A stretch of 64,000 bases of DNA from Alistipes sp. Lineage in GTDB: Bacteria > Bacteroidota > Bacteroidia > Bacteroidales > Rikenellaceae. The notes beneath the pieces were generated by a model that had not been told where the DNA came from, made no database searches, and saw nothing but the letters and a program-made list of their open reading frames with translations. Positions 19,333 through 29,676 of the stretch are shown here, in pieces. A program made the translations under genes and the position numbers. The DNA lies in assembly GCA_017937765.1 (NCBI GenBank), contig JAGBCY010000033.1, positions 58,014 through 122,013 of the forward strand, written 5' to 3'. The first letter of the stretch is position 1. Each line of letters opens with the position of its first letter.

Positions 19333-19638
19333 TGCGTCCGCGGGGCAGGTGGTTATGGGGAGCATACGGCGTATATAATTAATATATCTTTGTATTATTG
19401 GGGATGGTTAATGTGGCTATGACCAGTAATATAGCAACACGTGCAAGTGGTTCACCACTTGCACGTGTTTGTAGCGACAGGGCCCAAGATTAAATCCTAT
19501 TTGGCTTTCAATGATATTGGTTAAAATTCTTGAGCAAAGAGATTTGCTCGTTTGATCCAGATTTACTCCTCGAGAAAATCATAATTACATATAGCAATCC
19601 TCATTTATGTATCGTGCTATATGATATCGAATCGAATG
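19333..19638. other. Convergent intergenic region
   Basis: 306 bases between the convergent kinase and RyR genes. The only clear structure is the hairpin at 19436-19469. Base composition changes here from GC-rich to AT-rich, marking the left edge of the island. No tRNA or obvious attachment-site repeat was seen. Confidence 0.6.
19436..19469. terminator. Long hairpin terminator
   Basis: A perfect 15-bp stem (19436-19450 with 19455-19469) with loop TTCA stands between convergent genes. It probably terminates both. Confidence 0.75.
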
Positions 19639-19923
19639 CTATTTTGTGATTTTAAAGCCCAACTTTAGGATTAATTTTAGCGTCTCCAAAGATGTATTAC
19701 GATCATACTCTTTTTCGTCTTCGCTCAACTGCTCATATGGAACCAGACAAGGGTGAAGTTTTAAATTGTCGTTACGTTCTTTTCCGTATGTCCAACCTTG
19801 ATTAATGCGGCTCTGTGCCCATACGTCGTGAACGTTTCTTGCCATCTCTTCCACTAACTCCTGCAATTCGTTGGGTAAAATAATATCTTTGGTGTCAATC
19901 GGATTGGGAATGTACTTAGTCAT
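19639..19923 (-). CDS. Free-standing RyR-domain protein
   Basis: A 94-residue protein that is almost only an RyR domain (residues 4-92). Its hallmarks are PNPIDTKDIILP, EMARNVHDVWAQSRINQGW, KLHPCLVPYEQLSEDEKEYD and TLKLILKLGFKI. RyR domains occur in ryanodine receptors; in bacteria they are predicted ligand sensors in defence-type systems. The ligand is unknown. It is the last gene of the minus-strand half of the island and has its own -7 box at 20095-20088, about 165 bases upstream. Two more RyR-like modules occur in the island. Confidence 0.88.
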   Translation of the reverse strand: MTKYIPNPIDTKDIILPNELQELVEEMARNVHDVWAQSRINQGWTYGKERNDNLKLHPCLVPYEQLSEDEKEYDRNTSLETLKLILKLGFKITK

Positions 19924-20087
19924 AATTGTTTAATAACTATTAGTCGAAAATATATATCGTTCTTCTGTAAAACTATTGGAACTATTCGTATATGTAATGA
20001 GTGATAACGTTGTGGCTTATCGGTAGAACAACTACTATTGAAATGATATGGAACTACGTTATCATTATGGCGGCTTTATTGTATGTG

Positions 20088-20095
20088 CAAATATA
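20088..20095 (-). promoter_or_regulatory. -7 box for the RyR gene
   Basis: TATATTTG on the minus strand (20095-20088) matches TAnnTTTG. No clear TTTG lies 20 bases upstream. It would leave a leader of about 155 bases. Confidence 0.35.
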
Positions 20096-20152
20096 AGCAT
20101 AGATTGTTTAAAGTGTATTATGAAGCAGTTTAATTATAATATTTTGTAACAA

Positions 20153-20560
20153 TTAATGAGAATAAGAGTGCTGATAGATGATACGCTCTGCAATTTCAAG
20201 AGCCTTATCGTCCAGCTTGCTTTGTTGTATCAAACCCCATACCTGAGTTAATATTACGGGCCAAGTTACGAATAAAGCTATTGCTGTTGGTATCGCTTGA
20301 AGTCCAAACAAACCAACTGACGCGTCAAATTGAGTGTCGCCATTATCGGGAGTCAATTTGATCTTCAGTGCAGTTTTCATTCCGAGGATTGCTTTGAAAA
20401 TACCTCCTTTGGTTATTGAGATCTCCTTACCGCTGTAACCAATATCTTGAACTGTTACATCGTAACCATCGTTGGTAAATTCTTGTGCCATTACAGAACT
20501 GATGTGGGGAATTAAAGATGGATCCCCATACAAACGCTTATTTGTGTTAAATGCTCCCAT
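20153..20560 (-). CDS. Small membrane-associated protein, unknown family
   Basis: A 135-residue protein. The first 80 residues are mixed alpha/beta with GKEISITKGGIFKAILGMKT, which suggests a lipid- or protein-binding domain. A hydrophobic segment follows (about residues 82-108, LFGLQAIPTAIALFVTWPV), and then a short polar helix. It has no signal peptide. It lies between the RyR gene and a DUF697-like membrane protein, so it may work with them. I do not recognise the family. Confidence 0.7.
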   Translation of the reverse strand: MGAFNTNKRLYGDPSLIPHISSVMAQEFTNDGYDVTVQDIGYSGKEISITKGGIFKAILGMKTALKIKLTPDNGDTQFDASVGLFGLQAIPTAIALFVTWPVILTQVWGLIQQSKLDDKALEIAERIIYQHSYSH

Positions 20561-20609
20561 AACGTATAATGTTTTTAGAATGTTATTTATAATCTTTATG
20601 CGATTGTGT

Positions 20610-20650
20610 ATACGTGGAATATCGTATATCTTATGTGATATTCCACGTAT
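20610..20650 (-). terminator. Hairpin after the DUF697-like gene
   Basis: A perfect 14-bp stem (20610-20623 with 20637-20650) lies 21 bases after the stop of the gene at 20671-21192. There is no T-run, so it may be an attenuator or RNA-stability element. Confidence 0.55.
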
Positions 20651-20670
20651 GCAACATCGTGAAACCTTTG

Positions 20671-21192
20671 TTACTTGCCCTTTGAGATGTCGTTCATCTT
20701 GTCCTTGTTCTGGGCCATCACGTCATTAACACAGGACTTAAGATCGTCGCCACTACCACTGCCGTTCCTTACCCAGCGAGCGATAGCGGTGAGGTATACC
20801 CAAGCGGCACAGATGGTTGCACCATACATAGTGGCTCCCATCATAACGCCACCAGTGATAGTGCCCAAAAACGGAATGTACTTCACGATAGCACCTGTTC
20901 CTGCAACTGCTAAGTTGCTTGCAAGGTTTGCGGCGACTGCAGAGCCGAGGCTCTTCATCATGTTTTCGCTGAAAGAGATACCCAACAGACGGTTGATGCG
21001 AACATACATTGTCCAGATGTTTCCCGTAAGTGCAGCAACATCAAGACCTCCGACTGGAATGAATGACGCAGCGACAGCTATACCAGAATGGGTCTGGATA
21101 CAATCTACAATCTCGTTGGGAAGAGTTGTTCTCATCTCCTTGTCAAATGCTCTCACGGCTAATACTGCGGCTGGATAAATAGCAGGACTCAT
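20671..21192 (-). CDS. DUF697-like membrane protein
   Basis: A 173-residue protein with two or three hydrophobic segments. It has the pattern of DUF697/YcjF-type domains often fused to or encoded beside GTPases: THSGIAVAASFIPVGGLDVA, then NIWTMYVRINRLLGI, and a Gly/Ala-rich membrane hairpin around residues 95-140. The C-terminus is a basic, charged tail. No GTPase domain is present here. Location in the same island as two dynamin-like proteins suggests a membrane-remodelling or membrane-sensing module, which is inference. Confidence 0.65.
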   Translation of the reverse strand: MSPAIYPAAVLAVRAFDKEMRTTLPNEIVDCIQTHSGIAVAASFIPVGGLDVAALTGNIWTMYVRINRLLGISFSENMMKSLGSAVAANLASNLAVAGTGAIVKYIPFLGTITGGVMMGATMYGATICAAWVYLTAIARWVRNGSGSGDDLKSCVNDVMAQNKDKMNDISKGK

Positions 21193-21299
21193 AATTGATA
21201 GTTTTTATGGTTAATATTACGTTTTGTCTTCTGTATATATATATCACTTTCGATGTGGAAAAATACCATTATCCAGAATAAATATTAAGCAATATGTGT

Positions 21300-21332
21300 A
21301 AAAAAATAGTAAAGTGTCACAAGACACTTTAC
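21300..21332 (-). terminator. Rho-independent terminator
   Basis: A perfect 10-bp stem (21309-21318 with 21323-21332) is followed on the minus strand by TATTTTTTTA. It ends the broken RyR gene unit. Confidence 0.8.
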
Positions 21333-21371
21333 CATTTTCGAGAATCATTGATGTAGATAGGAGATGTGCGG

Positions 21372-22021
21372 CTACTTTCTCATATCAAATCTGCGGTCAA
21401 AACTCAGATTAACAACAATCTCATCATAAACTATTGCCTTATTGTCTTGACCTGTTTCTAATTCATGACATGATACTAAGCACCTATGCTTACGTCGCCG
21501 GAGATCCTTGGTTCTTTTTTCTTCCTCTATATCCCCATATACAAATCCTAATAACTCCATTTTGGCATTCCAGCGCAAATGTTCGCATCGACGCAAATTC
21601 GTGAGTAGGGCACTGTTCTTAGTCAATCTAATATCTACGCTATTTCCTGGAGCATCTTCTGATAAACCTGCCAAGCAACGCTTAGTCTTAATATGCCTAT
21701 AATTAGAGATATCTTGCTCCTCGGAGTAGCGCAAATATATTAGTCCATCTTTATCATTGTTTGCGTCTCTTCGGTTATACCATTGTAGATACTTGTCTTG
21801 TTCTATCTTTGTTTGTGTTTTTTCTATTTCTTCTTTCTTTTTTTCGTATTCATAATAGAACTCCATCGCACCCTCTTCCGTAGCATCCATAGATATGGTT
21901 TTGTAGTGAAAAACTCTATTATTGCTACCGAACGGTATAATGTAGGATTATCTATTATGGTCCTTATATGGTCAGTAAAACTTAGCTCTGTCATAAAGTC
22001 TGGGATATTGGTTAGTTGCAA
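21372..22021 (-). pseudogene. Truncated, frameshifted RyR-domain gene
   Basis: The downstream 172-residue frame (start at 21890) ends in an RyR-like segment, LRRCEHLRWNAKMELLGFVY followed by HRCLVSCHELETG. In larger bacterial proteins this EHxRW pattern forms the first helix of an RyR domain. It is preceded by a charged coiled coil (YEKKKEEIEKTQTKIEQ). Upstream coding sequence continues in another frame (21824-22021, with TELSFTDHIRTIIDNP). The downstream frame stays open past its ATG to about 21934, so the two frames overlap as after a frameshift. No N-terminal domain precedes. This is probably the remnant of a larger sensor; a functional 172-residue protein cannot be excluded. Confidence 0.5.
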
Positions 22022-22088
22022 CTACCCACAAAGCTAGCTAAAATTTCTAATAAACAATATTATATATAAGATTTGGTGGAAGTTATAC

Positions 22089-22118
22089 AAAAGTGGCTCC
22101 CAGCTGGGAGCCACTTTT
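22089..22118 (-). terminator. Palindromic terminator
   Basis: A perfect 30-base palindrome (two 15-base arms, AAAAGTGGCTCCC core) lies 20 bases after the stop of the gene at 22138-22998. Confidence 0.75.
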
Positions 22119-22137
22119 AAGTTGCAGACTACAACCT

Positions 22138-22998
22138 TTATACAGCCTCTTTATAGCCGTTTGTGTCGATTAATACCCCCCATTGAGCATTAAGGTTCTC
22201 ACGTATCTCCGACAAAGACTTATTAACGTTCTCCAAAATAGTTCGGTTAAACATCTCCTTCTTGCTCGTCGACTTGAGAACCTTAGTCATCTCGTCAGTT
22301 AACTCTCGGCGGATATTACTTTCAACGGAGCTTAGTGCCCATTTGCCACCGACTATAGCAGAGAGAACCACACTAACAACTATTGCCGTAAGTCCAATAG
22401 GGGTGAAAAGAGAGGCTATGCCAAGAATCAATCCGGCACCGAACTCACACCCCATAGTTTTTAAGGTGGCGTCAATTCCTCCAGCACCGCCCATTATTGC
22501 GCCACCAATATCCCCGACAAGGAGCGATGTGCCTGAACTTAGAATTCGGTTTGTCTTGCTCGGTGTTGTTTTGTCTATGATATGACGCTGGTCAATGTTT
22601 AGCGAAACGCGCAAGCTCTCAAGCTCGCTGAGGTACGTGTGGGCTTTTGCATCTACCGATTCGGACAGTGTTATAATCTCGCTCTTAAGCAGAGGGATGA
22701 AGTGAGTGCGTACCCAGCTGTTTGTCTCGGTTTTTATCTTCGATGATACGTGTCCAACCAGTTCCGATGTGTAGGCCTGTGATTGGCTTTTAAGTCTAAA
22801 GATGCTATTAACAGCAGTCTGGCATTGGGAGTCATTGACCCAGCCTGGAACCTCGCGAATAAGGTCAGAATAAAAGGTGTCTGAGACCTCGAGGGCGTGT
22901 TTGCGAATCTCGGCCATACCCTCCTCGATATGTTGTTCAATGAGCTGCTTCTTCATTTGTGATTGAGCATCAAAGCTCGTGTTAATGACATTCTCCAT
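22138..22998 (-). CDS. Dynamin-like membrane protein lacking a GTPase domain (B)
   Basis: A 286-residue protein: a helical, charged N-terminal half with coiled-coil character (residues 1-145), a Gly-rich hydrophobic hairpin (about 150-222, containing GGAIMGGAGG and LTAIVVSVVLSAIVGG), and a helical C-terminal tail. This order resembles the stalk and membrane paddle of bacterial dynamin-like proteins or BDLPs, but no P-loop or other GTPase motif is present. Its start overlaps the upstream gene by 17 bases, so the two are translationally coupled and likely form a complex. The resemblance is judged by eye. Confidence 0.6.
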   Translation of the reverse strand: MENVINTSFDAQSQMKKQLIEQHIEEGMAEIRKHALEVSDTFYSDLIREVPGWVNDSQCQTAVNSIFRLKSQSQAYTSELVGHVSSKIKTETNSWVRTHFIPLLKSEIITLSESVDAKAHTYLSELESLRVSLNIDQRHIIDKTTPSKTNRILSSGTSLLVGDIGGAIMGGAGGIDATLKTMGCEFGAGLILGIASLFTPIGLTAIVVSVVLSAIVGGKWALSSVESNIRRELTDEMTKVLKSTSKKEMFNRTILENVNKSLSEIRENLNAQWGVLIDTNGYKEAV

Positions 22999-23644
22999 AC
23001 GATATCTTATTTAAGGCGTTAATAATTGCGGCATTGGGCTGTGTCATAGCCTCCATTACGTGCAACTTGAGTTGCAGTTTATAGTTATTCACGATGTCTG
23101 GCAGTATAGCCATAATCTTTTCCTTTGATCTTTTGGTGCGAGAGATGAATATCTCTTCTGCTCCGGTGCCAAACAGAATGCTCCCGACAAATACTCCTAC
23201 ACCAAAACTCGATAAGCAGAGTGCGGTAACGATCGTGCCTACACGTGTGTATAAACGCGTCTTGTGGATGTCCATAAGGTCGAGTTTGGATGTCTCGAAG
23301 TCCTCTGTCCTCAATGGATAATCGACAAAAGGTAATTCAAACTTGCTGATGCCAAAAGCGGCCAAACTACTCTTTAGCCAATATAAGTTTTGGGTATATC
23401 CGCTAGTAATAACCTTAGTGATATGGCGCAAATCTGTGGTTGCAAGAGATCCCATACGATATGGGATCTCTTTCTCGTAGAACGATTTTGGGTCGCTACA
23501 ACCATCGACATCGTGCTTTAATTGATGAAGGAAATCGGAAGCTCTCTCTTCTAAGTATCCGTCCAACTGCGCAAATAATTCGCGATTCTTCTTGGCGACA
23601 CTCAACTTTAGCAGTGTCCAATCCATTCGACTTGGTTTTATCAT
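22982..23644 (-). CDS. Dynamin-like membrane protein lacking a GTPase domain (A)
   Basis: A 220-residue protein with a long helical N-terminal region (residues 1-128), one hydrophobic hairpin (about 130-160, RVGTIVTALCLSSFGVGVFV) and a helical tail rich in Lys and Glu (RTKRSKEKIMAILP). The layout parallels the overlapping downstream protein and the paddle of dynamin-like proteins. No nucleotide-binding motif is present. It follows the C39-like peptidase gene by 53 bases and appears to be in the same operon. The family was not recognised with certainty. Confidence 0.6.
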   Translation of the reverse strand: MIKPSRMDWTLLKLSVAKKNRELFAQLDGYLEERASDFLHQLKHDVDGCSDPKSFYEKEIPYRMGSLATTDLRHITKVITSGYTQNLYWLKSSLAAFGISKFELPFVDYPLRTEDFETSKLDLMDIHKTRLYTRVGTIVTALCLSSFGVGVFVGSILFGTGAEEIFISRTKRSKEKIMAILPDIVNNYKLQLKLHVMEAMTQPNAAIINALNKISYGECH

Positions 23645-23697
23645 AGCACAATGTTATAAGGTTATACAAAAGGATCTACTGCATCTTATGGTATATA

Positions 23698-24303
23698 TTA
23701 TGTCAATAGATCATTGATAAAGGCGAACTCCTCGGGGGATACCTGCGTTGCCACCATGGTACACCCTGAATCATTCCAAGCATCCATGAAGTTGTCAAGG
23801 GGGAATTCCGTACGGAAATAGCCAGTCCCCGAATCCGTCAATGTGATAAGGTTGTCCTGTGGAGATACCCCGTCGACAATCACAGCGTGGTCGGGGATAC
23901 CACCGTAAACCATATCTTCGAATTGTTCGTTAGCTCCAGGCGACCATAGTTCTCCGGAGTCAATAGCTACAACAACACGATGGTCCTGCGCAAGTTCGCT
24001 AATAAGGTTGTCGACGCCGTTACCCTCGGTAACGTTTACTGGGACTCCGCGCCCTTCGATGTGCTTCCCCATACAGTCTAATGGTGTCCCTTGTCCCGGT
24101 TTATACCATCCTTGAGCTTGACCTTCGAACTGTAACTGCTCTTCAGTTACGTCAAAGCCGTACTCATTAAGGATTGAGGCCTCGGAGTGGAAGTTGCAAC
24201 CATCCGTTGTGTGCTGAACACTCTCTGGTACCAGGATATTCTCTGCTGGAATACCATAGCTGTGGTTCGCTTGCGCGAATCCAACTGAAAATGTCTTTTC
24301 CAT
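23698..24303 (-). CDS. C39-like papain-fold cysteine peptidase
   Basis: A 201-residue protein made mainly of a C39-like peptidase domain. The likely catalytic triad is Cys36 (TTDGCNFHSEASIL), His139 (IPDHAVIVDGV) and Asp157 (LTDSGTG). The intermediate blocks QGWYKPGQGTPLDCMGKHIE and VVVAIDSGELWSPGA are as in other stand-alone C39-like proteins. There is no signal peptide and no transporter, unlike bacteriocin C39 exporters, so it should act in the cytoplasm. The same fold with an equivalent triad occurs in the protein at 25908-26999, on the other side of the divergent promoter region. The substrate is unknown. Confidence 0.8.
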   Translation of the reverse strand: MEKTFSVGFAQANHSYGIPAENILVPESVQHTTDGCNFHSEASILNEYGFDVTEEQLQFEGQAQGWYKPGQGTPLDCMGKHIEGRGVPVNVTEGNGVDNLISELAQDHRVVVAIDSGELWSPGANEQFEDMVYGGIPDHAVIVDGVSPQDNLITLTDSGTGYFRTEFPLDNFMDAWNDSGCTMVATQVSPEEFAFINDLLT

Positions 24304-24328
24304 AGCCGTTAAGTTTTATAGGTTTGAC

Positions 24329-24336
24329 CAAATGTA
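24329..24336 (-). promoter_or_regulatory. -7 box for the peptidase/dynamin-like operon
   Basis: TACATTTG on the minus strand (24336-24329) matches TAnnTTTG and lies 26 bases before the start codon at 24303. The -33 element is poor. Confidence 0.4.
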
Positions 24337-24446
24337 GTTGCCCAATGTGGGCGTCTATTATAAATGATCCGTTATAATCACTGAAAATACCTTTTAGTGA
24401 TAATATTTTTTCAAGAAAAATTTGCAAATATTATATACGGCTATGG

Positions 24447-24559
24447 TAGATTTGCGCCGCTTGATGCCTCATTATGAACAGAGCACTATTAATAATTAAT
24501 TATATGGCACAAATTCTTAGTCCTAATGGCGGACATATTGGATTTAATAATTATCTTTG
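24447..24559 (+). promoter_or_regulatory. Two -7 boxes before the sigma-like gene
   Basis: TAGATTTG (24447-24454) has TTTG 22 bases upstream at 24421-24424. TATCTTTG (24552-24559) is a perfect -7 box 28 bases before the ATG at 24588 but lacks a clear -33. If the neighbouring sigma-like protein recognises its own promoter, the missing -33 could be where a different element sits. That is speculation. Confidence 0.4.
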
Positions 24560-24587
24560 CATAGAGAACTAATAAACACTATTCCAT

Positions 24588-25874
24588 ATGACACAAGACA
24601 TTTTCTTAACACTACTAAAACAATTATGCGATCCTTCGACGAGGAATGAGGTTTTTGACAAATTCCTTACGAAGAATCGCTCGATATTCGATCAGGCCAT
24701 CGGCATTATGTACTCTGATCCGAAGTACTCTGAGGTAGATGTAAAGGGCATCTATTATGCTAACTTCTCAAAATTTGTCGTTCACAAATTAGAGAAGGCA
24801 GAGGTTGGTACTACGTTTGAGGAGTGGGTTAGCCGATTAGCAAAAGATAGAGCTAATGAGATTCGCTCGAGCGTGAATAAGGAGCTGATTAAGGTGTTAT
24901 TCCCAAGAGCTGGAAAGGAGAATTGGGATACTACGTGTCGCCTTATACTTGAGGAGTATTCGCATATGTTTAGGAATGTGGCCTACAAGTATTACGACAA
25001 TGCTAAATATAATCGTGATAGAGCCAATATCCCGTTTATTTTGCAAAACTTGTTTTATGAGAAACGAGCGAAAAATCCCCGTGCAATAGTAAGAAAGGAT
25101 GGCAACGGAGAGACTGAAATTCAGGAGAATTTTGATGGCTATATGTATAGAATGATAGCTCATTTTGCAGGTAGGATTCGCCCTGAAGTTGATGCAGAAC
25201 TGGGATGCGATCATTACGATCAGACGGTTCCTGATAAGTCGGAGGATGACGAGATTGATGATATCTATAACATTGGCAATGACGACACGGAGACACCTTC
25301 GCGTTCTGATGTCAAAATCAGGACTCAAGATGATGCCGATATAACGAATGATGAGACCCTCTTGACCGATGATGAGGATTTTGGCGCATCGGTTGAGTTG
25401 ATTGAGAACCTGCTGAAGAAAATGCCCAATCAGGAGCAGGCGGAGTTGATTCGCAAGAGGATATTGTGGAGGCATACATATGAGGAGATGGCATCTGAAG
25501 AGCGCTGTGGTATCGATTATATGCGTACGCGGTTTAATAAGGCTATGGACGCATTTATTAAGGTGTCACTACCTGAGGTTAGAAACAGATGTAAGACTAT
25601 GTTCAAAAAATATGGCCAGTCTCTGACAAATGAGTACCATAAGAGCATCTTAGGTGCCTTCTTTTCAAGCAACCAGAGTATGTCGGAGATTGCAACTTCC
25701 TTTGGCCGTGGCGATAAAGAGTTCTCGGCGGAGTTGGTTCAGGCATATAAGCTTCTAAAGAAGTGCGATAAGAAGAACGAGCAAAAGCATAGAGGTAAGC
25801 GTAAGAACGACGATGAGAAGTACGTCACTGTGGTGTTAGGATGGAAAGACTCTAACGAGGATAGTGAAGAATAA
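24588..25874 (+). CDS. Sigma-factor-like protein with apparently doubled domains
   Basis: A 428-residue protein. Residues 268-330 look like a sigma-70 region 4 helix-turn-helix (LIENLLKKMPNQEQAELIRK, then RHTYEEMASEERCGIDYMRT). Residues about 30-97 resemble region 2 (IYYANF, FEEWVSRLAKDRANEIR), and a similar pattern appears at about 120-200 (FILQNLFYEKR, FDGYMYRMIAHFAGRIR). A second helix-turn-helix-like part lies at 350-392 (SMSEIATSFGRGDKEFSAEL). An acidic linker (210-265) separates the halves. ECF sigma factors are about 200 residues, so this is twice the usual length. The next gene starts 33 bases later and looks anti-sigma-like at its N-terminus. No signal peptide. Confidence 0.65.
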   Translation: MTQDIFLTLLKQLCDPSTRNEVFDKFLTKNRSIFDQAIGIMYSDPKYSEVDVKGIYYANFSKFVVHKLEKAEVGTTFEEWVSRLAKDRANEIRSSVNKELIKVLFPRAGKENWDTTCRLILEEYSHMFRNVAYKYYDNAKYNRDRANIPFILQNLFYEKRAKNPRAIVRKDGNGETEIQENFDGYMYRMIAHFAGRIRPEVDAELGCDHYDQTVPDKSEDDEIDDIYNIGNDDTETPSRSDVKIRTQDDADITNDETLLTDDEDFGASVELIENLLKKMPNQEQAELIRKRILWRHTYEEMASEERCGIDYMRTRFNKAMDAFIKVSLPEVRNRCKTMFKKYGQSLTNEYHKSILGAFFSSNQSMSEIATSFGRGDKEFSAELVQAYKLLKKCDKKNEQKHRGKRKNDDEKYVTVVLGWKDSNEDSEE

Positions 25875-25907
25875 AACATTATTTTTTAATTTAAATATTA
25901 GAAATCT

Positions 25908-26999
25908 ATGATACGTAATCATATATCGAGAGAGCGATTGGACCTTTTCCTTGATGGTAAGGCATCTGCAGTAGAGACATTGGAGATATTGGAAGCGATG
26001 GTTTTCGACCCATCAATCCAGGAGTATATTATTTCATCGCGACGTATGAATCATACGATAGAGTTGAAACGTGACTACGGTGGCTTTATCCCTATCACCC
26101 AATTAGCGGCTGACGATGGCAATAACTTATGTGATATTCAGTGCGAAAGATATCTGCTCGCAAAATATGGTAGGGAGATAACTGAAGAAATGCTAACGAC
26201 CAAGGCTCAGAATAACTATTGGCTGAGAGAAATGGGTACGCCATTGTATAATGTAGGAAAACTTTTAGAGGATAGTAAACTCGTTGTCATTAGAAAGTAT
26301 GATAGCGATATCGACCAATTAAAAAGAGTATTGGAGGGTCTCAATGATGAGCTTGTGCACGATGCTATCGCTATCGTAAACAATAGCATTCTTGTAAATG
26401 GTGAGCCTGAAGATTATTTCGCAGATGAGAACCCGAATCACGCGGTTGTGGTTCTAAGTATCGACAAAGAGAAGGGCGTGGTCGAATTATATAATCCCTC
26501 TACGGGTAATGAAAAAGATGTTTATAGTATAGAGCTCTTTACTCGTGCGTGGGCAGAGTCAAAGAATTATCTTGTGTTGGTTAGAGAAAGAAAGGAAGAG
26601 TATGAATATAGTCCCAATCCTATTGATGTAAGCAATGTGAGCCTATCGCCTGACCTCGAAGAGTTGATCGATACAATTGCAGAAAATGCACATAATGTTT
26701 GGGCAGAAGAGAAAATTAGGAAAGAGCCCGATATTAGGTATGCACCGAAGGATGAAAATGGCAATGAAGTTCCGGGACATAATCACTATTTATTGCCATA
26801 TGCAGAATTGCCACAGGAGGATAGACAGCCAGATATAGATATGGCAACAACGACAATCAAATTGTTGAAGCGTATTGGTTATCGCATTATAAACGTTAAT
26901 AACCTCCATAGGTGTTCAGAGTGTGGCGAGCCTATTGAAATGCACAATCTTTATTGTTCGCATTGCGGTAAGAAGCTTACCTGGGAGGACTTTAAGTGA
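25908..26999 (+). CDS. Anti-sigma-like / C39-like peptidase / RyR / zinc-ribbon fusion
   Basis: A 363-residue, apparently cytoplasmic multidomain protein. Residues 1-50 form a short helical segment (ISRERLDLFLDGKASAVETL) like the N-terminus of anti-sigma factors. Residues 60-225 are a C39-like peptidase with Cys75 (NNLCDIQCERYLL), His178 (NPNHAVVVLSI) and Asn196 (ELYNPSTG). Residues 236-330 are a divergent RyR domain (SPNPIDVSNVSLSP, IAENAHNVWAEEKI, NHYLLPYAELP). The tail is a CxxC-x10-CxxC zinc ribbon (Cys336, 339, 350, 353). It lies directly after the sigma-like gene. I infer that ligand binding to RyR triggers proteolysis that frees or inactivates the sigma-like partner. Confidence 0.8.
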   Translation: MIRNHISRERLDLFLDGKASAVETLEILEAMVFDPSIQEYIISSRRMNHTIELKRDYGGFIPITQLAADDGNNLCDIQCERYLLAKYGREITEEMLTTKAQNNYWLREMGTPLYNVGKLLEDSKLVVIRKYDSDIDQLKRVLEGLNDELVHDAIAIVNNSILVNGEPEDYFADENPNHAVVVLSIDKEKGVVELYNPSTGNEKDVYSIELFTRAWAESKNYLVLVRERKEEYEYSPNPIDVSNVSLSPDLEELIDTIAENAHNVWAEEKIRKEPDIRYAPKDENGNEVPGHNHYLLPYAELPQEDRQPDIDMATTTIKLLKRIGYRIINVNNLHRCSECGEPIEMHNLYCSHCGKKLTWEDFK

Positions 27000-27080
27000 G
27001 ATTGATAGTTTGTGTTGATAACGAATTGTCGGGGATAATATAATTGTCATTGACATAAATTAATCGCAGAATAGGTATTA

Positions 27081-27133
27081 ATGTCCCTAAATGTAGCTCT
27101 ACTATAATGAGAGTAGGTTACATTTAGGGGCAT
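27081..27133 (+). terminator. Hairpin terminator after the fusion gene
   Basis: A long imperfect hairpin: arms ATGTCCCTAAATGTA (27081-27095) and its near complement (27119-27133), with an inner TCTACT/AGAGTA pairing. Nothing else was recognised in the 309-base gap 27000-27308, apart from AT-rich leader sequence before the next gene. Confidence 0.6.
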
Positions 27134-27308
27134 CTTGTGTTCTGCCTTTCCCATAACAGCAAGATGGTCTTATACCTTTATGGGTACATAATTTTGTGTG
27201 TAGAGCTATAGTGTGATACGCTTGATCGCCGGCGTGCTATGTAGATGTGAGCTAGAAATTCTTACAGGTTAAAAAATATTCATAAAAAGTGTAGAATAGC
27301 CGCGATTT

Positions 27309-29123
27309 ATGGCTCTATGTAATAAACGGAAAACTGATAAACATATGAATACAAAGTTACATATCGGACAGATGGTTGGAAGCTATCGTGTAGAGAAGTT
27401 CATAAAGGCCTCTTCGGATAATCGCAGTGAAAGTTATTTTGTAGTTGATGACAATGGCAAAAAGGCACTGATGAAATTGTATAGCAATGACGCAAAAAGC
27501 TGTGCTGCGGAGTATGGCGAAAGGGTGATATTTGCGGGTAACCTCTCTCTTCTTCCAGTGGTAGATAATGGCGAGATTGATGTCGATGGCGTTCCGTATC
27601 ACTATATTGTTCGTGAGTTTGTTGACGGCGAGCGTCTTTCGGATCTCATTAATTGTGGTAAGCGTTACTCTTGGGAGCAAGCTGCTCTTATTATACTTCA
27701 GGTAATGAGTGCGTTGAAACAGCTGCACTCACAGGAACGGGCCGTCATCCACAATGATGTCACTACTCGTAATATTATAATCAAAGAGGACGGGGATAGA
27801 ACTCTGGTTTACGTTATAGGTATGGGTCATTTGTCACGTAGGTGTAATGGTAAGGCAACTTTTTGTACGACAGATTTGAATAATTGGTATCGAGCCCCCG
27901 AGACCTTCAAGGGTATCTATGATGAGCAGTCGGATATATTTTCGGTGGGAGCCGTGCTTTACACGATGATCGAGGGTGTTGAACCGTGGAGTATTACATC
28001 TGAGACTCACGATGTCAATGTAGACAAAAATCTCTTGAAGAGTATTCGTTCGGTGGGTAATGAGATCATTGACCGTATGCACATTACTGAGGCACAGAAG
28101 GCTATCTTAGGCAAGATGATCGCGCTTGATTATGATAAGCGTTACCGTAGCGTCGAAAAGGCTATGAACGATATTGTGAGGGGACGTGTCACAGAGAGTA
28201 TCGATATGACCTTTTCTTGCAGAGAGTTGTCTGGTGACCATAGAAATGAACCTAAGGTTGAGGAGCAATTCGCTGAGGAGAGGATCAAGCCTTGTCGAGG
28301 TGGTGGCTTTGCAGATGTGGCTGGGATGGCAGATGTGAAGCGTATGCTTTATAAGGATGTTATGTTTGTGATGCAGAATAAAGATAAGGTGGATAAGTAT
28401 CGCCTTAAATCTCCCAATGGGGTACTCTTCTATGGACCTCCAGGTTGTGGTAAGACATTCATAGCAGAGAAATTTGCAGAGGAGTCACAGCTAAATTTTA
28501 TGATGGTTAAGGCATCAGACCTGGGAAGTATTTACATTCATGGTACGCAGGGTAAGATAGCTCAATTATTTGCCGAAGCGGCTAAAAAGGCTCCTACGGT
28601 TATATGCTTTGATGAGTTGGACGGTATGGTGCCTAACCGTGCAAACACTAATAACGAGAGTGTGTCGGGTGAAGTCAATGAATTTTTGTGTCAACTTAAC
28701 AATTGTTCAGAGCGAGGAATTTTTGTTATAGGAACATCTAACCGACCCGAGAAGATTGATCCGGCTATTTTGCGCACAGGTCGTCTTGATAAAATGGTTT
28801 ATATTCCTATGCCGGACTTGGAGGCTCGTAAGGAGATGTTCAAGATACAACTCGATGGGCGTTATTGTGATGAGAGTATTAACATTGATGAGTTAGCAAA
28901 ACGTAGTGAAGGTTATGTGGCGAGCGACATTAGCTATATAGTTAATGAGTGTGCCTTAGAGGCTGCTATGTCGGATGTGCCTATTGATCAATCCTTGATT
29001 CTTGGTGAGATTCACAAGGCACGCAGATCTGTCACTTCTGATGATATTGCAGGTTATGAGCGCGTGTGTAAGAAGTTTGAACAGCAGACATCTAATCAGA
29101 CGCGTCGAGTAATAGGTTTTTAA
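27309..29123 (+). CDS. Degenerate Ser/Thr kinase fused to a classical AAA+ ATPase
   Basis: A 604-residue protein. Residues 25-295 have a protein-kinase fold: Lys56 (KALMKLY), catalytic-loop-like VIHNDVTTRNI (HND at 148-150, Asn155), RAPE at 195-198 and SDIFSVGAVLY. The glycine-rich loop is lost, and DFG is replaced by Gly171-Met-Gly, so kinase activity is doubtful. Residues 333-600 are an FtsH/Cdc48-type AAA+ domain: Walker A GPPGCGKT (376-383), Walker B ICFDELDG (Asp435, Glu436), sensor GTSN (Asn478) and arginine fingers Arg489 and Arg492. No zinc protease domain follows. It may remodel the sigma/protease partners. An alternative ATG at 27345 is equally plausible. Confidence 0.85.
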   Translation: MALCNKRKTDKHMNTKLHIGQMVGSYRVEKFIKASSDNRSESYFVVDDNGKKALMKLYSNDAKSCAAEYGERVIFAGNLSLLPVVDNGEIDVDGVPYHYIVREFVDGERLSDLINCGKRYSWEQAALIILQVMSALKQLHSQERAVIHNDVTTRNIIIKEDGDRTLVYVIGMGHLSRRCNGKATFCTTDLNNWYRAPETFKGIYDEQSDIFSVGAVLYTMIEGVEPWSITSETHDVNVDKNLLKSIRSVGNEIIDRMHITEAQKAILGKMIALDYDKRYRSVEKAMNDIVRGRVTESIDMTFSCRELSGDHRNEPKVEEQFAEERIKPCRGGGFADVAGMADVKRMLYKDVMFVMQNKDKVDKYRLKSPNGVLFYGPPGCGKTFIAEKFAEESQLNFMMVKASDLGSIYIHGTQGKIAQLFAEAAKKAPTVICFDELDGMVPNRANTNNESVSGEVNEFLCQLNNCSERGIFVIGTSNRPEKIDPAILRTGRLDKMVYIPMPDLEARKEMFKIQLDGRYCDESINIDELAKRSEGYVASDISYIVNECALEAAMSDVPIDQSLILGEIHKARRSVTSDDIAGYERVCKKFEQQTSNQTRRVIGF

Positions 29124-29150
29124 TACAAATATTTTTAATATGCCGATAAT

Positions 29151-29528
29151 ATGAGAATGATTGAAAAGGTGATGGCTGAGTTGCAGAAACAAGGTTTTGT
29201 GCCTCAGCGCGAGGATGATTGTGTTGTATTCAAGTATCAGATGCTTGGTTACCTCTATTTGGATGACGAGGACGAAGATTATTTTAGTCTGTATGCTCCA
29301 TATATCTTTGAGGTGGGGGAAGATAATCTCGGGGATGTTTATGCGGCTATAAATGCCGTTAACAAAGATATGAAGGTTGTCAAGCTGATGATAAGTGATG
29401 ACCATGTATGGGCTTGTTTTGAAGAGATGCTACCCCATGGGGCCGATTTGGGGGAGATATTGCCTTATGCGATTGCCTCGTTATTCCGCTCTCGTCAGCA
29501 ATTTTATGAGAAACTCAAGGAGGTTTAG
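29151..29528 (+). CDS. Small acidic protein, possibly YbjN/chaperone-like
   Basis: A 125-residue acidic protein: a helix, a strand pair (DDCVVFKYQMLGYLYL), a long helix (GDVYAAINAVNKDMKVVKLM) and a C-terminal helix. The order resembles YbjN or type III chaperone-like folds, but this is judged only by pattern. It starts 27 bases after the kinase-AAA+ gene, the last gene of the plus-strand half of the island, and could be its adaptor or substrate. No signal peptide or membrane segment. Confidence 0.6.
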   Translation: MRMIEKVMAELQKQGFVPQREDDCVVFKYQMLGYLYLDDEDEDYFSLYAPYIFEVGEDNLGDVYAAINAVNKDMKVVKLMISDDHVWACFEEMLPHGADLGEILPYAIASLFRSRQQFYEKLKEV

Positions 29529-29587: not shown

Positions 29588-29676
29588 TTGTTGTGTGCAA
29601 AAATCACAAAAAACTCCTGTGCCGCTTGGCACATTGTAACCGCTAAGCACTTTGTCAAGAACGGCGCAATCACGTC

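Follow-up and report, generated by a model that had tools for sequence, protein, structure and literature searches.

The 64,000-nucleotide (nt) stretch of Alistipes sp. contig JAGBCY010000033.1 analysed here (the window) contains an island of eleven plausible open reading frames (ORFs; p01–p11) between positions 19639 and 29528. At its core lie two adjacent genes encoding a sigma-like factor (p08) and a protein (p09) that joins an anti-sigma-like segment, a C39 domain, an RyR domain and a zinc ribbon. The pair is read here as a signal-gated transcription switch, in which an ADP-ribose-type signal would gate protease, anti-sigma and sigma functions; this reading is tentative and is given slightly less than an even chance. 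It draws on the recurrence of the gene pair, its domain make-up, the conservation of its catalytic and ligand-binding residues and an enrichment of TIR genes at related loci. The source assembly comprises 1.92 Mb in 33 contigs and is 85.7% complete.

The sigma-like factor and the fusion protein

The first gene of the pair, p08 (24588–25874, plus strand), encodes a predicted long-form factor resembling the sigma-70 family, in which an insertion follows the region-2-like part and a region-4-like helix-turn-helix unit occurs twice in tandem (residues 267–330 and 336–396). The product does not match any sigma family in Pfam (scanned with p01–p10; PADLOC and NCBIfam were scanned with all proteins except p01). 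The sigma-like protein named in a first-pass annotation of this DNA is recovered through homology to a sigma-like family and through the predicted model, which contains a region-4 fold. Searched as a single sequence against 295 genomes of the order, p08 retrieved itself alone (1/295), and the family view was therefore built from p09.

The next gene, p09 (25908–26999, plus strand), encodes a fusion of four parts, namely an anti-sigma-like helical N-terminus (residues ~1–57), a C39 fold (~62–230, with Cys75, His178 and Asn196), an RyR domain (234–327) and a zinc ribbon (336–357). The AF2 model of the protein (pLDDT 89.4) has helices at the N-terminus, directly after the sigma gene, and its Foldseek matches include the RyR entry 3nrt of B. 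thetaiotaomicron and the C39 peptidase domains of PCAT1 and ComA. The C39 domain is clear in the predicted structure and reaches 0.22 in Pfam. Within the alignment of p09-type proteins, Cys75 and His178 are each present in 51/51 rows, and position 196 is Asp or Asn in 51/51. A second C39-fold protein, without an anti-sigma or RyR part, is encoded by p07 (23698–24303, minus strand). Its Pfam C39_2 match (3.6e-4) lies under the cut-off, and its Cys36, His139 and Asp157 are kept and invariant in 6/6 aligned relatives. Both proteins carry the Cys-His-Asp/Asn triad of C39 peptidases, in agreement with the two C39-like peptidases annotated earlier.

Distribution of the gene pair

The 295 order genomes were searched with p09 and a second p09-like protein of the source genome as a two-row profile, which gave matches in 27, the source genome included. 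Outside the source genome, p09 is matched over its full length in G208, G237 and G028, over the N-terminal and C39 parts only in G106, G148 and G119, and over the C39 part only in G020, G030 and G218; most of the remaining matches are confined to the RyR or zinc-ribbon end. A scan of ~85,000 species genomes with the N-terminal and C39 part yielded 153 pattern matches, from which 58 loci were obtained, nearly all from Bacteroidales and mostly from metagenome-assembled genomes (MAGs); judged by their length, contigs of G208, G237, G028, G106 and G310 are also among them. The loci are often cut by contig ends, and their genes were called by a simple longest-ORF script by which some genes are missed or mis-stranded.

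At 56/58 loci the fusion is immediately preceded by a sigma-like frame (the exceptions being L080 and L107), a count that is partly circular because some profile rows were drawn from the loci themselves; the first sigma profile, of seven rows with four from contigs among the 58, already matched at 48. Where a fusion gene was called (53 loci), the frame usually overlaps it, at 48 of them, with a median of −20 bp. This coupling argues against a further explanation, regarded as extremely improbable, in which the genes form a peptide-processing or secretion module and the C39 domain would cleave leader peptides in the manner of bacteriocin exporters. The closeness of the fold to the exporter peptidase domains of PCAT1 and ComA would suit such a module. 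Against it, no ABC transporter occurs among the Pfam matches listed for ten island proteins, a set that does not extend to small peptides.

The source genome encodes a second p09-like protein (L044:3381-5064, contig C2) with 37% identity to p09, directly after a 181-amino-acid (aa) sigma-like gene. The L044 pair has an ordinary guanine-cytosine (GC) content and an ffh-like gene nearby (by eye), and it falls in a tree clade different from that of p09. The fusion was not found in 5/5 other same-genus genomes searched and is full-length in 1/55 other family genomes (G310), with three more having an RyR match only. Host families are intermingled in the p09 tree, where an Alistipes MAG, for instance, stands next to a Muribaculaceae MAG. 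Patchy presence and host mixing together suggest that the fusion has been gained and lost through transfer. Carriage of the fusion by phages or plasmids was considered and dropped, given 58 pattern matches on viral contigs with 0 confirmed, none on plasmids and a single phage match, to the RyR domain.

The sigma–C39 pair is also present in a Roseburia record (L057, JAMPEL010000037.1), where it may sit on a mis-binned contig, its closest tree row being from a Prevotellaceae MAG. A 406–416-aa gene with radical-SAM-type cysteine motifs (by eye) is located downstream of the pair at two loci (L053:11466-12686 and L054:11586-12836). No description of a sigma/C39/RyR system was found among the papers listed in literature searches, and an earlier prediction in a 2015 nucleotide-signalling review may exist.

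RyR domains and ligand-binding residues

A May 2026 preprint (PMC13232231) describes phage RyR-domain proteins, termed RyDEP, that bind 2'/3'cADPR (cyclic ADP-ribose), one of which cleaves these molecules, and names the residues H75, W78, H100 and D117; homologues of high sequence conservation bound without cleavage. Three RyR-like modules had been annotated in the island, and all three are retained, p01 and p09 by Pfam and p04 by alignment. The stand-alone RyR protein p01 (19639–19923, minus strand) matches PF02026 at 1.8e-38 with 131.1 bits and the fused domain of p09 at 2.9e-20 with 72.7 bits, against a cut-off of 27.4 bits. The third module, p04 (21372–21890, minus strand), is a remnant without a Pfam match to its RyR-like domain. 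It exhibits 44.8% identity to residues 534–731 of a 732-aa protein at L051, the closest related locus (a Paludibacteraceae MAG, 10.9 kb), relative to which it is 5'-truncated, with the N-terminal ~530 aa missing.

The RyDEP phage gene was aligned with six stand-alone and six fused bacterial domains, a subset of those available (the stand-alone rows being p01 and 5 of the 10 complete proteins listed). H75 and W78 are invariant in 13/13 rows, and D117 is present in all except L044 (Asn). All four positions, H100 included, occur in 6/6 stand-alone proteins, p01 among them. The His, Trp, His and Asp are likewise invariant in 7/7 rows of the p04-type C-terminal domain (six p04-type and p01), and the His and Trp of the site are found in 42/43 p09-type rows having an RyR domain.

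TIR genes at related loci

A profile built from eight local seeds identified 44 TIR-like proteins at 27/58 loci. Each of the 44 is a Pfam TIR_2 match at 0.001 and has a Glu in the same column, presumably the catalytic Glu of TIR NADases. A p09 gene was called at 53 loci; these have 39 of the TIR proteins, 37 of them on the p09 strand, and 15/53 putative operons include one. As background, 154 TIR_2 matches are present in 59 of 149 whole order genomes, a density at which the 0.95 Mb that make up the 58 loci would contain roughly 0.3 (assuming an estimated mean genome of ~3.5 Mb), an enrichment that overstates specificity because defence-type genes cluster and the background consists of whole genomes, not of random defence islands. 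A SIR2-TIR gene is also found at L063.

TIR genes are seen more often together with the RyR domain, at 26/45 loci with an RyR-bearing fusion vs 1/12 without (p = 0.003), though these are not 12 independent cases because the RyR-less fusions fall in about three tree lineages. For this comparison L059, with a truncated RyR, is counted as lacking the domain and L104, cut by a contig end, is left out; before that the counts were 27/46 vs 0/11.

Proposed signal-gated switch

In the proposed scheme, for which we infer anti-sigma binding, ligand identity, cleavage, regulon and defence role, the helical N-terminus of p09 would hold the sigma factor p08, and the RyR domain would bind an ADP-ribose-type nucleotide produced upon infection or stress. 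Ligand binding would activate the papain-fold C39 domain, which would remove or alter the N-terminal part of p09, probably near a conserved Ala-Ala just before the catalytic Cys. The freed sigma factor would then transcribe effectors of the dynamin-like, DUF697, channel-like and M48 kinds, with TIR proteins at many related loci, and the stand-alone RyR protein p01 would bind or destroy the signal and thereby reset the switch. The sense-cleave-transcribe-respond circuit of the first-pass annotation gains support from the pair recurring across gene surroundings and bacterial families and from the gene order at L051; its role in defence is presumed. A wider version is rather doubtful. It would make the pair an undescribed immune switch, with a TIR-made cyclic-ADPR-type signal read by the RyR–C39–anti-sigma polypeptide, a cut at the conserved Ala-Ala freeing the sigma factor for membrane-acting effectors, the stand-alone RyR protein erasing the signal, and phage RyDEP countering both this switch and the Thoeris system.

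Several observations weigh against the proposed switch, among them the limits on the TIR enrichment and on the RyR–TIR association given above. The N-terminus of p09 is a probable anti-sigma segment, as judged from its position, its helices and weak zf-HC2 matches (2/51 p09-type N-termini, best 0.0042; 0.01 for L042). The H100 column varies in the fused RyR domains, with Asn in p09 and its L051 relative and Thr in L044; it is His in L053, L071 and L087. No alternative promoter motif common to the related operons is clear above a crude shuffle, and the visible boxes are of the housekeeping type.

The canonical oxyanion residue of C39 peptidases, a Gln six residues before the Cys, is found in 0/51 p09-type rows. 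This absence favours an alternative, held to be unlikely, in which the fusion would be an anti-sigma factor that responds to a nucleotide without proteolysis, its shape being shifted by the RyR ligand and its C39 domain serving as scaffold or peptide binder, as does the existence of inactive C39-like domains in ABC exporters. Yet Cys75 and His178 are invariant in distant homologues, as expected of a catalytic pair, and the Cys, His and Asp are kept in p07 and its relatives. The p07 protein carries the Gln at −6 (read from the alignment).

The source genome has 0 TIR_2 matches at E <= 0.001, and a missing TIR gene is possible at its degree of completeness; a TIR gene was also not seen on the 11-kb contig of L051. 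The lack of TIR in the source genome would be in keeping with a stress or envelope sigma switch having no role in phage defence, whose RyR domain would respond to a nucleotide of metabolism, for example ADPR or ATP. The ffh-like gene near L044 fits the same explanation, as does the binding of adenine ligands by animal RyR repeat domains reported in the RyDEP preprint (PMC13232231). Such a switch is considered improbable, since TIR genes are strongly enriched at related loci, one of which has the SIR2-TIR gene, and since the patchy presence of the fusion and the mixing of host families in its tree resemble defence genes.

Other genes of the island

The proposed switch is embedded in a set of genes that is partly conserved at L051, where the order p04-p05-p06-p07 | p08-p09 is kept with a full-length p04 and a p01-type RyR gene downstream. 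Nucleotide similarity between L051 and positions 18–31 kb of the window consists of three blocks, all within island genes, and p07 is 76% identical to its positional counterpart in L051. Homologues of p02, p03 and p10–p11 were not found at L051, whose contig ends cut the locus. That the region is an ordinary defence-type island, with unrelated modules as neighbours by chance, holds for p10–p11 and suits the optional p02 and p03. As an account of the core it is very unlikely, because the content and order of p08–p09 and of p07-p06-p05-p04 are kept with similarity confined to island genes, and because of the near-constant sigma–fusion pairing.

Following p07 on the minus strand, p06 (22982–23644) encodes a protein with a hydrophobic stretch (by eye) and 59% identity to its L051 counterpart, kept between p07 and p05. 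No credible family match for p06 was obtained from Pfam, NCBIfam or PADLOC. The p05 product (22138–22998, minus strand) is the membrane half of a dynamin-like protein without the GTPase domain (hhalign 97.2%; PADLOC LeoBC 2.3e-8), with 51% identity to a 279-aa L051 gene product. It matches residues 365–583, in the C-terminal, non-GTPase half, of a 670-aa dynamin encoded near a sigma–C39 pair. Of the two GTPase-less dynamin-like proteins annotated earlier, p05 stands and p06 was dropped (best Pfam E 0.23). The DUF697-like assignment of p03 (20671–21192, minus strand) is kept with 25.1 bits, under the cut-off of 27.7, and homologues at 4/58 loci.

The p02 gene (20153–20560, minus strand) encodes an uncharacterised family with homologues at 17/58 loci, in which a C-terminal zinc ribbon is frequent elsewhere and absent here. 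A census of 291 genomes gave 22 p02 matches, six of them strong. Besides the window these are G106 and G208, where the gene is beside a sigma–C39 pair, G207, beside a p04-type and an RyR gene, and G142 and G135, where the genes called in the fetched stretch do not include a pair. The remaining 16 matches are weak and cover only the C-terminal end of the profile. Families recurring at the 58 loci include one that has an M48 member (20 loci), a large channel-like family (20; the one member scanned has a Slo-type RCK match), an 85-aa family (15), stand-alone RyR proteins (11) and p04-type proteins (9). Eight loci have a further family, of which the single member scanned is a PrsW protease, an enzyme that in Bacillus cuts an anti-sigma factor. 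A similar zinc ribbon often terminates the M48 peptidase, the p02 family and the p09 fusion (L035:11044-12755, L038:10402-12071 and others), as if it were a common docking tag.

At the right end of the island, p10 (27309–29123, plus strand) encodes the protein kinase-AAA+ fusion named by the first-pass annotation (Pkinase 1.1e-24, AAA 2.5e-33), and p11 (29151–29528, plus strand) encodes a 125-aa partner with a homologue (7e-54) next to a p10 relative at L176. In 12 genomes p10 is matched at 1e-45; the nearest relative is 65% identical, with no sigma–C39 pair among the called genes around it. Judged by its gene neighbourhoods, p10–p11 is a separate module. The reading of all ten annotated genes as a single system is rejected because this nearest p10–p11 relative occurs without the core pair; moreover, p02 and p03 are recurrent but optional, and p04 is truncated. 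Co-occurrence as a block, the check proposed for that system, is borne out for p08–p09 and for the order at L051 and fails for the ten genes together. At L178, L179, L180, L182 and L183, from several Bacteroidales, p10 relatives lie directly or up to two genes after a ~826–855-aa protein that itself adjoins a 306–316-aa gene, possibly another uncharacterised system.

Layout and composition of the island

The island is arranged in two divergent halves on either side of a spacer (24304–24587), with p07, p06, p05, p04, p03, p02 and p01 on the minus strand to the left and p08, p09, p10 and p11 on the plus strand to the right. The halves and spacer described earlier are thus upheld, and the count rises from ten loci to eleven ORFs. 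The spacer contains two boxes, TATCTTTG (24552–24559, plus) before p08 and TACATTTG (24329–24336, minus) before p07, which we take to be Bacteroidetes-type −7 promoter boxes. The pattern assumed for this box, TANNTTTG, has 44 matches in the window vs 23.6 expected from shuffling.

The AT-richness noted against the flanks is evident (GC 0.414 in the island vs 0.543 in the remainder of the window). It is not a property of the system, since only 12/30 comparable loci longer than 15 kb have a pair with less GC than the DNA around it, and the L044 pair has 0.527 vs 0.510 in its surroundings. The two convergent terminators reported as boundaries are only partly recovered. On the right, a minus-strand hairpin with a T run (29618–29633) is weak evidence because nine terminator-like sites were found vs 7.0 expected; on the left, a perfect 16-bp hairpin (19436–19469) has no clear T run. 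No integrase occurs among the Pfam matches listed for p01–p10 (for p10, the best 25 of 29), as noted previously, and no tRNA was found within the window. An imperfect 28-nt inverted repeat (82%) is located in the gap between p02 and p03 (20601–20659). A left-flank gene is present in 23/41 family genomes, the source genome included. The 22 other flank genes gave no match at 1e-10 in 20-kb stretches from six of the 22 further genomes that have it, and therefore no empty site is definable.

Comparison with known systems

If the proposed switch is correct, bacterial RyR domains would gain a host-side role in sensing ADP-ribose-type immune signals, transcription control would be added as an output of TIR signalling, and a nucleotide-to-protease-to-sigma logic like that of Calp would have arisen from unrelated parts. 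The pair is compact at two genes, recurrent in many Bacteroidales genomes and directly testable.

In Thoeris, a TIR protein makes cADPR signals that activate an effector. The likeness lies in the TIR_2 genes at related loci; in contrast to a Thoeris system of TIR and ThsA-type effector, TIR_2 is missing from the source genome at the threshold and completeness given above, and the proposed output here is transcription. The pair resembles ECF-type pairs such as SigW-RsiW in having a sigma gene followed directly by a presumed regulator and in the region-4 fold. It differs in p08, a long form that has two region-4-like units and lacks a Pfam sigma match, and in the p09 regulator, which includes a protease and a sensor domain and seems soluble (by eye). 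In Craspase, of type III-E CRISPR, a protease acts on a sigma-inhibiting partner. The proposed action of the C39 domain on a sigma-inhibiting part would be analogous, whereas CRISPR RNA recognition as trigger and a caspase-like protease belong to Craspase.

The RyDEP proteins share with p09 the ligand residues H75, W78 and D117 and with p01 these and H100. The RyR domain of p09 is bacterial and fused to a regulatory protein, whereas RyDEP is a phage anti-defence enzyme or sponge (PMC13232231). The closest parallel in logic is Calp of type III CRISPR, which comprises the SAVED-Lon protease CalpL, the anti-sigma factor CalpT and the sigma factor CalpS, and in which a nucleotide messenger acts on a sensor-fused protease, the protease on the anti-sigma factor, and the sigma factor is freed (PMC12751052). 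No SAVED domain or Lon protease is among the matches listed for the island proteins (Pfam for p01–p10 and PADLOC for p02–p11, with the best 25 listed for p10). The p09 protein has RyR instead of SAVED and a C39 papain fold instead of Lon, and it holds sensor, protease and probable anti-sigma segment in one chain. Because the proposed logic matches with unrelated parts, p08–p09 may, by analogy, work like Calp without being a member of it.

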